Positions 44,335-48,069 of a DNA stretch of 61,649 nucleotides are shown one piece after another. The notes under the pieces were generated by a model, which was not told the DNA's origin, made no database searches, and worked only from the letters and a program-made list of their open reading frames with translations. Where the stretch lies: positions 1-61,649 of the forward strand of contig JAFXDK010000007.1 in assembly GCA_017521805.1 (NCBI GenBank), written 5' to 3'. Both the position numbers and the translations under genes were made by a program. This stretch comes from Ruminococcus sp. GTDB lineage: Bacteria; Bacillota; Clostridia; Oscillospirales; Ruminococcaceae. Position 1 is the stretch's first letter, and each line of letters opens with the position of its first letter.

Positions 44335-45461
44335 TAACTCACGTAGACATCGACGGTTTCAGAAATCTGTCGAATATCTCTTTTGTTCCCGATACCCGCT
44401 ATAACATCATAGTGGGTGCAAATGCGCAGGGAAAAACAAATCTCCTTGAAGCGCTGTGGATTATGTCAGGCTGTAAAAGCTTCCGCGGCTCTAAGGAAAG
44501 GGATTATATCGCCCTTGATAAAAGCAGATTTACCTCTGAAATGAAAATCAGGGATATAGTCCGTGAGCAGAAAATCACCTTTGAAATGACAAAAGGTGCA
44601 AATATAACGAAAAATATAACAATTAACGGAGTAAAGCAGAAGGGCACGCGGAATCTTTTCGACGTTTTCAAGTGTATCGCCTTTATCCCTGATGATGTGG
44701 AGATTATAAAAGGCGCGCCTGAAAAGCGACGGAATTTCATCGATATGGCGGCATCTCAGCTGAATCCCGTTTTTGTGGCTCATATAACAAAAAATAACGC
44801 TGTGATGAATCAGCGTAATGCTCTGCTGAAATCAATTATGCAGGGCGGCTCAGATTCGTCAATTCTTGAAATATGGGATAAACAGGCGGCTCACGAGGGG
44901 GCGTTGATATCCTATATGCGCGACGGATACGTAAAAAAAATAAACGAGATTTGCGGCGAGCTCTACTACGCCATTTCGGGTGGCAGTGAAAAGCTTGAAT
45001 TGGAATACAGGTCAAATGTCTATAAGCCCGAGGATTTCAGCGAACCCTGCGGCGAGGCGGCTTTTGAAAAATACTACAGAAAGCTTCGTGAATCCGCAGA
45101 ATACGATATCCGCACGGGTATAACCCATTCGGGAGTAAACCGCGATGAGCTTATAATAAAAATCAACGGTATAAGCGCCAAGGAGTATGGCTCACAGGGG
45201 CAGATAAAGTCCGCGGCACTTGTTATAAAGCTTGCTCAGGCTGAAATTTTCATGAAGCGGAGCAAGGAAGCTCCTGTAATATTTCTTGACGACGTTATGG
45301 GAGAGCTTGACGAAAATCGTCAGCGTTTCATTTTTGATATTATCAAGGATATGCAGGTATTTATCACAACTCCAAATGAAAGCGCGCTTCTTCCAGATAT
45401 AAAGGGAAAAATCCTGCGTATCAGCGGCGGCAGGCTCACAGAGGAAAAAGCAGATGAATAA
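44328..45461 (+). CDS. recF: DNA repair protein RecF
   Basis: The 377-residue ATPase starts at GTG with GAGG upstream. It has the Walker [16 protein letters not shown], the signature segment around [19 protein letters not shown] and Walker [18 protein letters not shown]. It loads RecA at gaps and stalled forks. It overlaps the S4 gene before it and the remB start by 8 bp after it. Confidence 0.97.
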
Positions 45462-45717
45462 AACAATTTATCTCCATATCGGCAATAATTATTCCGTAGA
45501 TGTCCGTGAAATCGTTGGCATTTTCGATATGGACAATACAACAGTAACAAGCTGTACAAAAACGCTGCTTGACAAGGCTCAGAAAGAAAAACGGCTGTTT
45601 TTAGCCACATATGAACTGCCGAAAACATATATTATCACAAAAAAGCGTGTATATATCTCACAGCTTGCGGCAAGTACGCTGAAAAAGCGCCTTGAAAGCG
45701 GCGGAGGGTTTATTTAA
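45454..45717 (+). CDS. remB: RemB-like regulator (DUF370)
   Basis: The 87-residue protein matches the extracellular matrix regulator family beside recF: YLHIGNNYSVDVREIVGIFDMDNTTVTSCTKTLL and KTYIITKKRVYISQLAASTLKKR. Such proteins bind DNA or shape expression of matrix genes in Bacillus; here the role is unknown. Its start overlaps the end of recF. Confidence 0.85.
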   Translation: MNKTIYLHIGNNYSVDVREIVGIFDMDNTTVTSCTKTLLDKAQKEKRLFLATYELPKTYIITKKRVYISQLAASTLKKRLESGGGFI

Positions 45718-45749
45718 TTCGTAATTCATAATGCGTAATTCGTAATTAA

Positions 45750-45772
45750 GTAGGGGCGGATATTATCCGCCC
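45750..45772 (+). repeat. REP element at the 5-prime edge of the RAYT remnant
   Basis: Exact copy: GTAG, then GGGCGGATATTATCCGCCC. It is read in frame as GADIIRP upstream of the transposase, directly after an in-frame TAA. Confidence 0.95.
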
Positions 45773-45929
45773 GATTACAGAATTGACAGATATAGGAAAA
45801 ATTATAGATTATTCATTACATCAGATAGAAAAAATATATAATGATGTTTATGTAATGAAATACTGTATAATGCCAGACCATATACATCTGATTATTTCAA
45901 TTAATCGCGATTATGAAATAATATCAGAC

Positions 45930-45952
45930 GGGCGGATATTATCCGCCCCTAC
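45930..45952 (-). repeat. REP element inside the RAYT coding sequence
   Basis: The inverted copy, GGGCGGATATTATCCGCCC then CTAC, is read through as GRILSAPT. It faces the copy at 45750-45772 in a converging pair that brackets the HUH-motif segment. Confidence 0.95.
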
Positions 45953-46143
45953 AATCCCTACTATTATTGGTTCATTTAAAAGATTTGTTTCAAAGAAATC
46001 AGGTTTTTCTATATGGCAGAAATCATATTATGATAGAATTATACGTAATAACGACGAATTAGTTGAGATGTGGGATTATATAGAAAACAATCCTTTGAAT
46101 TGGGTTAATAATAAATTCAACCAGAATAAATGGAGGTAAATTC

Positions 46144-48069
46144 ATGAGTCATCAGAATAATAATTACGACGAAAATGACATACAAATTCTGGAAGGACTT
46201 GAAGCTGTAAGAAAAAGACCGGGTATGTACATCGGTTCTACAGGACCAAGCGGTCTGCACCACCTTGTATATGAAATCGTCGATAACTCTATTGACGAGG
46301 CACTTGCAGGCTACTGCACCGAAATAAAAGTTGATATACTTCCAGATGATATTATTAGGGTATCTGATAACGGTCGTGGTATCCCTGTTGGTATTCACCC
46401 AAAAGAGGGTATTTCTGCGGCTACCGTTGTTTATACAATCCTCCACGCAGGCGGAAAATTCGGCGGCGGCGGATATAAGGTGTCAGGAGGACTTCATGGT
46501 GTTGGTGCGTCTGTTGTTAATGCCCTTTCGGAATGGCTTGAACTGACTGTCAAGGACGGCGAAAATGTATGGTTCCAGCGTTTTGAGCGCGGTCATTATG
46601 ATGAACAGCTCAAAGCTATCGACAAAACCTCTGAAACAGGTACAAGCGTTATGTTCAAGGCTGATGCTGAAATCTTTGAACAGACAGTATACGACTACAA
46701 TATCCTGCTGAAAAGACTTCGTGAACAGGCTTTCCTTAACGCAGGTATAAAAATAACTTTCTCAGATTTGCGTGACGAGACTGAAATAAAATCCGAAACA
46801 CTTCACTACGAGGGCGGTATCCGTCAGTTTGTGGAGCATATCCACGAGACAAGAGGTCATGTTCCTCTAAGTGATGAAGTTATATACGTTTCGGGTACGC
46901 AGGGTGATTCCTTTGCTGAAATCGCTCTCCAGTACAACGACAGCTACAATGAGGTTATACTTTCATTTGCAAATAATATCCACACAAAAGACGGCGGATA
47001 TCATGAAACAGCCTTTAAAAATTCAATTCAGAAAGTTATCAACGACTACGGCAAGAAAATGGGACTTCTCAAAGATAAGGAGAAGCTCAGCGGTGACGAT
47101 GTCCGTGAGGGAATTACAGCAATTATTTCTGTAAAGCTTACCGAGTGTGAATTTGAGGGACAGACAAAGGGACGACTGGGAAATCCCGAAGTCAAGCCAT
47201 TTATTGAAAAGCTTGTACAGGAAAAGCTGATGAATTACCTTGAAGAAAATCCTGATGTTGCAAAGGTTATTTTCGATAAGGCACTTTCAGCCCTGAAAGC
47301 TCGTGAAGCCGCAAAACGTGCAAGAGATGCAGAGCGTAAGAAAAACGCATTCGGAAATGCTTCAATGCCCGAAAAACTGGCAGATTGCTCCGAGCGTGAT
47401 GCAAGATATACTGAAATTTACATCGTAGAGGGAGATTCTGCGGGCGGTTCTGCAAAGCAGGGACGTGACAGAAAATATCAGGCAATTCTCTCTCTATGGG
47501 GAAAAATGCTCAACGTAGAAAAGGCACGTATCGATAAGATTTATGGAAATGACAAGCTTTCTCCCGTTGTAACGGCTCTTGGTACAGGTATCGGCGAGGA
47601 TTTCGACATTGAAAAACTCCGTTACGGAAAAGTTATCATCATGGCGGATGCCGACGTTGACGGTATGCACATCAGAACACTGCTTCTGACATTCTTCTTC
47701 CGTTATATGCGTCCCCTTATTTCAAACGGAAATGTATATATCGCACAGCCGCCGCTTTTCAAGGTATGGCGCGGAAAAAAGGAGAGATACGCTTTTTCTG
47801 ACGAGGAACGCGATACTTTCATAGCTGAGCTTTCCGAGGAAGGAAAATACAAGGTTGACGTTCAGCGTTATAAAGGTCTTGGTGAAATGGACCCCGAACA
47901 GCTCTGGGAGACAACTATGGACCCCGAGCGCCGTACTATAGTTAAAATCGGCATGGAGGACGCTTTAAAGGCTGACGAGACATTCTCAATTCTTATGGGC
48001 GACAAGGTTGAACCGAGAAGAAAATTCATCGAAGAAAACGCGAAATTCGTCCAGAATCTCGACATATAA
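46144..48069 (+). CDS. gyrB: DNA gyrase subunit B
   Basis: The 641-residue protein has the GHKL ATPase ([49 protein letters not shown]) and the TOPRIM domain ([36 protein letters not shown]). With GyrA it introduces negative supercoils. Its ribosome site GGAGG (46132-46136) is made of the last codons of the RAYT remnant. Confidence 0.98.

Follow-up and report, generated by a model that had tools for sequence, protein, structure and literature searches.

How do a REP-associated tyrosine transposase (RAYT) and its family of repetitive extragenic palindromes (REPs) stay matched while they change, and how does a REP family start in a new genome? Both questions are raised by a truncated RAYT reading frame (45750..46139, + strand; 129 codons with the stop as the 130th) in the 61,649-nucleotide (nt) stretch of Ruminococcus sp. 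DNA analyzed here, which we call the window (contig JAFXDK010000007.1, positions 1 to 61,649). Two GTAG-tagged REPs form part of the coding sequence of this frame. From its orthologues and relatives we consider it probable, though by a distance short of certain, that the frame is a decayed member of a RAYT variant that bears its cognate substrate, a convergent in-frame REP pair, in its own gene, an arrangement that would serve to link enzyme and substrate and to seed new REP families.

A convergent REP pair within a RAYT reading frame

REP A (45750..45772, + strand) is composed of GTAG, an 8-bp stem and a 3-nt loop (GTAGGGGCGGATATTATCCGCCC), is translated as VGADIIRP and forms the 5′ edge of the remnant. 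REP B (45930..45952, − strand), translated as GRILSAPT, is a convergent member of the same family and on its own strand equals GTAGGGGCGGATATTATCCGCCC save for one loop base. The 24-nt arms of the two are 96% complementary and lie 155 nt apart, and their GTAG tags point outward around a segment that contains the His-Ile-His codons of the HUH motif (45879..45887, + strand, read by eye). An in-frame TAA (45747-45749, codon places read by eye) abuts REP A on its 5′ side. This layout of two converging in-frame REPs bracketing the HUH motif, with a stop 5′ of the first, had been claimed in a preliminary description of this DNA and is confirmed here.

The window frame matches Y1_Tnp of Pfam (PF01797) above the cut-off (E = 3.2e-8, 34.1 bits versus 23), the protein of locus L042 falls below it (21.4 bits versus 23), and the NCBIfam model REP_Tyr_transpos matches the window frame at E = 3.3e-14, below its curated cut-off. 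All 47 proteins of set A2 match NF047646 at E ≤ 1e-5 and have invariant HUH (H90, H92) and tyrosine (Y156) columns; the RAYT thus has a Y1/HUH domain, and it is associated with GTAG-tagged REPs. Its best PDB profile match is 4er8 (TnpAREP, E = 9e-11), with weak matches to 2xm3 and 2xma. The probable catalytic tyrosine codon of the window frame (46077..46079, + strand, in DYIENNP) aligns with a tyrosine of 4er8 that we take to be Tyr115 of E. coli TnpAREP. A plasmid search returned five distant matches.

Five REP families at one orthologous locus

The window frame is the orthologue of intact RAYTs located between remB and gyrB in other genomes of the genus. A gyrB-like match was found in 123 of 125 genomes, and 114 remB-gyrB gaps were fetched, giving 115 with the window (G204, at a contig start, was left out, as were genomes whose only gyrB match was weak; a contig end truncates six of the fetched gaps). 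This set includes R. flavefaciens YL228 (L106 = G195). A RAYT with at least 120 residues covered occupies the gap in 38/115 genomes, 27 of them with an intact frame, and both REPs are present in 26 of these 27 intact genes. Counting all frames, 34 genes contain both REPs (L186, L214, L230 and L236 lack one REP and do not count among them; L242 has an additional REP upstream of its RAYT, which was disregarded in assigning its family). REP A and REP B belong to one family in every one of the 34, and there are five families overall: F1 (GGGCGGATANNATCCGCCC), F2 (GGAACGCCG....CGGCGTTCC), F3 (GGGACGGCGTCCTCGACGTCCC), F4 (GGGAGGCCG....CGGCCTCCC) and F5 (GGGACGCCG....CGGCGTCCC, one gene). The REP-encoded peptides vary with the family (VGADIIRP, VGNAALGVP, VGDGVLDVP, VGEAALGLP). 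The RAYTs of L163 and L180 are of the F1 type and that of R. flavefaciens YL228 is of the F2 type. In sister species of the window genome, the orthologous gap holds an intact RAYT with the same REPs in the same places, and L163, L233 and L180 have a REP of the REP A family at the orthologous site.

We asked how the REP codons vary among the intact F1-F3 orthologues, with REP columns defined by the majority within each family (F4, with two intact genes, was left out). Third positions of codons for the same residue differ in 2-4% of cases in REP columns versus 35-39% elsewhere, and the value is lower in REP columns in 96/96 pairs; some 9-codon windows without REP columns are equally low, mostly where columns are filled in only 1-2 genes. 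Outside the REPs the median ratio of nonsynonymous to synonymous substitution rates (dN/dS) is 0.10-0.17, with dS near saturation.

In-gene REPs in wider clostridial relatives

One genome per species was scanned with an alignment of six RAYTs, and the best 80 of at least 498 relatives were used. A strict scan for a GTAG hairpin with a stem of at least 7 bp inside the gene found one in 54/80 genes and a convergent pair in 36/80, in a set that leans towards REP carriers since the six-RAYT query contained REP-coded residues. With 16 other tetranucleotides in place of GTAG, any hairpin was found in 0-4/80 genes and no pair. When sites were taken unselected and located solely by the protein motif P-T that follows HUH, a hairpin stood exactly at site B in 60 of 67 genes (13 of the 80 have no anchor); moving the anchor from −12 to +12 gave 0 at 22 of 24 shifts, 8 at −1 and 1 at +6. 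Inner stem positions at site B vary with compensation (A-T, G-C, C-G and T-A are all found). REP A and REP B have a common 9-nt arm in 29/36 pairs (same-length permutation mean 5.5, maximum 14). The palindrome is read in differing frames, as VGAxxxRP and RGxxCxP at site A, with phase 1 in 7 genes at A and phase 2 in 5 at B, which argues that the DNA is kept and not the peptide. Codon-usage-weighted synonymous shuffles kept GTAG plus stem in 44/18000 cases and any stem in 390/18000.

Two trivial origins of the palindromes were considered. Chance is ruled out by the tag controls, the anchor shifts and the synonymous shuffles, and palindromy as a by-product of conserved peptides is ruled out by the reading in two frames together with the frozen third positions.

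REPs flanking the genes also tend to match them. Across the loci of the 80-relative scan, 20 of 114 flanking REPs have the 9-nt arm of the gene (permuted mean 3.0, maximum 17), and 12 of 27 loci have an arm-matching flanking REP (permuted mean 1.5, maximum 7); several of these REPs directly adjoin the gene.

A second set of relatives was collected with NF047646, a query free of the REP-bearing sequences, which had a match in 131 of 293 genomes of the class; 30 of the matching loci were examined, plus 20 chosen as short frames, and 24 loci are unscored, their frame being unrecognised by the script. In-gene REPs were found in 8 of 15 scored MP-type HUH (short-type) frames (L276, L309, L310, L312, L314, L315, L317, L319), five of them with a convergent pair. 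The preliminary description had proposed a search of the genome and of relatives for intact RAYTs with both palindromes in frame, and a comparison of the remB-gyrB gap across strains. Such full-length genes turned up in many clostridial relatives, and in the gap the sister species carry an intact RAYT and not unrelated sequence.

Further REPs were observed at some loci. L043, L047 and L050 (G105) have an in-gene REP pair at other loops: one REP is at site B, the other at a third site that precedes the IWQ motif (VGKAFMPSE in L043), and the GTAG tags face each other about 59 nt apart. An extra REP with the core of the gene lies downstream of the RAYT in L054, L061, L107, L121, L125 and L129 (534-562 nt from the match start) and in L051 (901 nt); the distance is near-constant in six of the seven loci and places the REP shortly past the stop.

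Exchange of the gene body with its REPs

When a tree is built from the RAYT body without its REPs, the five REP families can be placed on it with 4 changes, the minimum possible. A tree from the start of the adjoining gyrB requires 14 (shuffled mean 18.1), which rules out vertical inheritance of the REP family with the species. Pairwise comparisons locate the change. Between L197 (F2) and L206 (F3) a divergent tract opens at roughly the third RAYT codon and closes at the CACGACCACAT codons near 1336, and identity on either side of it is mostly 90-100%. REP A starts at 1042 and REP B ends at 1254; one near-identical 45-nt block inside the tract ends about 27 nt before REP A. The right end of the divergence is alike in L195/L196, L191/L200 and L202/L206. 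The swapped tract of 320-400 bp includes both REPs and the HUH motif, ends about 80 nt after REP B, and stops short of the tyrosine codon and the gyrB ribosome-binding site.

These trees and alignments show that at the remB-gyrB locus the RAYT gene body has been exchanged between alleles or species as a block with both REPs, and that REP family and protein core form one evolutionary unit. Of the mobile unit suggested in the preliminary description, only this much holds: alleles at one locus have exchanged the gene body together with its two REPs. The ends of the swaps lie outside the REPs, as ordinary (homologous) recombination would leave them. An internal cassette beginning only at REP A was also considered and is ruled out, as divergence begins at the first RAYT codons.

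Genome-wide REP content

The pattern GTAGGGGCGG-N7-CCGCCC has 33 copies in the genome of the window (G000), REP A and REP B included, and its reversed control has 0; with its tag, short palindrome and many dispersed copies it constitutes a GTAG REP family. In 20 other genomes there are 2-173 copies per genome (control 0 or 1 per genome). We counted exact F1-F4 REPs in 34 genomes, subtracting the two copies in the gene itself (reversed controls 0; G214, F5, excluded). The median number of own-family REPs was 36 in F1 genomes, 19 in F2 genomes, 21.5 in F3 genomes and 0 in F4 genomes. Genomes tend to hold more REPs of the family encoded by their own RAYT, and the observed coupling between gene family and genomic REPs was reached in 0/20000 permutations.

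When the protein of the window frame was searched against this genome, whose assembly is 91% complete, only two RAYT loci emerged at E ≤ 0.001. The second (L002, G000:C64:5887-6246) is a relic with a frame broken near the N-terminus. It too contains a convergent REP pair in frame, located at the protein positions seen in the window copy, but both REPs have another core, GAGCATTGCTC. Many extragenic REPs (L003-L032) follow the order of an inverted REP with variable core and CTAC, about 27 nt (e.g. aaatcggctattttacgttatttcgt), GTAG with an F1 REP, and caatttcggaacgaaatt; in this mosaic the cores look exchangeable inside a fixed scaffold.

The window copy is truncated at REP A

The gap in the window (45718-46143) separates remB (45454..45717, + strand), the upstream neighbour that served to locate the syntenic gap, from gyrB (46144..48069, + strand, ATG at 46144), the downstream anchor. 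From the remB stop to REP A, 32 nt of AATTCGTAATTCATAATGCG-type filler (45718..45749, + strand) occupy the place of the RAYT N-terminal codons, and the open frame then runs from 45750 to the stop TAA at 46137-46139. TGGAGGTA or a near form is found at RAYT ends in remB-gyrB gaps of the genus. Relative to L163, the window frame is without the 46 residues that precede REP A, including the YFVTICTK strand; from REP A on, identity to L163 is mostly 90-100% per 30-nt bin. The orthologues L163 and L233 have the full RAYT N-terminus and encode complete proteins. The window copy is incomplete and keeps no RAYT sequence before REP A, and comparison with the orthologues places its break exactly at the first base of GTAG. 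Over 121 codons the window differs from L163 by 10 synonymous and 8 nonsynonymous changes, and L163 differs from L233 by 6 and 3; the window counts are compatible with relaxed constraint and too few to show it. The window copy is a 5′-truncated relic and probably dead. A Shine-Dalgarno-like GGAGG for gyrB (46132..46136, + strand) lies inside the last RAYT codons, and RAYT tails in the window and other genomes may be kept partly for this ribosome-binding site.

Other gaps hold shorter remains. In L169, L203, L212 and L226 only the last 21-53 RAYT codons are matched before gyrB. In the L224 gap (G151) a RAYT was not found; it contains two convergent GTAGGGACGACCATTGGTCGTCC-type REPs and AATGCGTAATTCG-type filler as in the window.

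Alternative explanations for REPs inside the gene

The preliminary claim of a RAYT gene with a REP pair as coding sequence is borne out by the full-length relatives, the conservation at the DNA level and the correlation with genomic REPs, and these same three observations make it likely that the in-gene REPs are the RAYT's own substrate. Linkage and seeding, autoregulation and hitchhiking are each possible as the reason for their presence. In the first of these, which we prefer, the in-gene hairpins would be functional single-stranded sites of the RAYT. Lying inside an exchangeable gene body, they would keep enzyme specificity and substrate linked, and a transferred allele would bring two copies that could seed the spread of a new REP family. 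In G184 and G145 exact F4 copies were found only inside the RAYT gene, two per genome, a state that fits a newly arrived allele with internal copies only.

A number of observations weigh against linkage and seeding. The F4 genomes could equally reflect a declining REP family. Only 20/33 genomes have their own family as the most numerous of the four (F1 8/8, F2 6/13, F3 5/8, F4 1/4), G150 has 41 F4 REPs though its gene at the locus is F1, and G178 has many REPs of a family other than that of its gene. Phylogeny-aware independent pairs (2, 6 and 4 on supported branches) lean the same way as the permutations, but their number is too small to reach significance. Beyond the genus, A and B can differ, as in 7/36 pairs of the 80-relative scan and in L319. 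In-gene REPs were not found in 7 of the 15 MP-type frames (L293, L305, L307, L311, L313, L316, L320), and the 11 scored MSNH/MTNH-type frames have no REP in or near the gene. Among the seven MP-type frames, the clostridial RAYT L293 has many REPs on both flanks and zero inside, the classical REPtron layout. The window (53 bits), L042 (74) and L163 (60) score below the NF047646 cut-off of 80, and the window lineage is a RAYT-like lineage outside that curated equivalog. Finally, binding and cutting of the in-gene hairpins by the RAYT is predicted from homologues, and the seeding step is a proposal.

Neutral hitchhiking, in which REPs inserted once into two permissive loops were tolerated there without function, their identity maintained by gene conversion with genomic REPs or between A and B, appears to us unlikely, yet it is the likeliest of the alternatives. 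Both sites are loop insertions relative to 4er8, longer than the loops of E. coli TnpAREP (site A lies between the first strand and the first helix, precedes the aligned part and was placed by eye; site B follows the HUH strand and was placed by alignment). The sites can be lost, a strict in-gene hairpin being missing in 26/80 relatives, and in L200 a decaying F2 REP starting 48 nt before the start of its F3 REP marks a hybrid left junction, showing recombination at site A. REPs inside unrelated genes are also known (PMC3733652; this source, PMC8266576 and PMC6006769 are cited from excerpts throughout). Hitchhiking fits poorly with the single family of A and B in all 34 genes and with the way the family tracks the remainder of the protein. 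G184 and G145 yielded no further exact F4 REP that might have acted as a conversion donor, and several extragenic elements of the window genome pair unlike cores (by eye), which the genes of the genus do not.

Autoregulation, in which the enzyme would bind its gene's hairpins, as single-stranded DNA or in the mRNA, and so limit its expression or copy number, with linkage as a by-product, seems less probable again. The matched hairpins in 26/27 intact genes, their conservation at the DNA level and the coupling of specificity to the protein core would all suit it. Site A, however, lies mostly about 100-140 nt inside the frame, away from the start codon, no RAYT is shown to bind RNA in the literature covered (in part as excerpts), and autoregulation alone does not predict a correlation with genome-wide REP counts. 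A further thought, which we regard as quite doubtful, is that the REP is the hairpin cut by the enzyme while the residues that it encodes at loops A and B help to recognise it, such that a change of palindrome would re-aim the protein to match.

It is very improbable that the segment from REP A through REP B forms a REPIN-like element mobilised by the RAYT and that such activity shortened the window copy, as the preliminary description had thought possible. The outward GTAG tags and the window break at the first base of GTAG, one event only, would agree with it. Against it, the swapped tracts begin with the first RAYT codons (or some 27 nt ahead of A, should the 45-nt block of L197/L206 be counted as unswapped) and end beyond B, as homologous exchange would leave them, the genome has only the two RAYT loci found, and the characterised TnpAREP enzymes cleave outside the REP, at CT or CA dinucleotides (PMC8266576).

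Comparison with known systems

RAYT (TnpAREP) systems and REPtrons of E. coli, Stenotrophomonas and Marinomonas resemble the genes described here in their HUH and tyrosine transposase domain and GTAG-tagged hairpins, and the S. maltophilia REP is built like the 23-nt REP of the window, with a perfect 8-bp stem and a 3-nt loop (PMC8266576). In known REPtrons the REPs flank the RAYT gene or overlap its 5′ or 3′ end (PMC3733652), whereas here a convergent pair lies deep in the frame and is exchanged with the protein core. Intragenic REPs and Rickettsia palindromic elements (RPE) are likewise palindromic repeats translated in frame (PMC3733652) but are scattered in unrelated host genes; here the host gene is that of the enzyme presumed to process them, and the sites recur, come in pairs and match. 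REPINs (REP doublets forming hairpins) and bacterial interspersed mosaic elements (BIMEs) also have two inverted GTAG REPs around a spacer. The spacer here differs in that it is coding, spans about 155 nt or more and includes the HUH motif, and with only two RAYT loci the A-B pair is not a REPIN, a dispersed unit with a short noncoding spacer. IS200/IS605 transposases belong to the same superfamily, and their hairpins, which have guide tetranucleotides, are as we understand it (in part from PMC6006769) subterminal to the whole element and outside the transposase frame.

GTAG repeats are recorded for Proteobacteria, Cyanobacteria, Chloroflexi and the PVC group (PMC3733652). We found no described REP system for the genus in the literature searched, and no description of an in-frame convergent REP pair inside RAYTs in the open literature searched (subscription papers were outside its scope).

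A RAYT gene with its own in-frame REPs offers a concrete answer both to how enzyme and REP family could stay matched and to how a REP family could be founded. With five REP families in one orthologous gene and swaps of the gene body between near-identical neighbours, the remB-gyrB locus amounts to a natural experiment in which REP specificity is directly testable.
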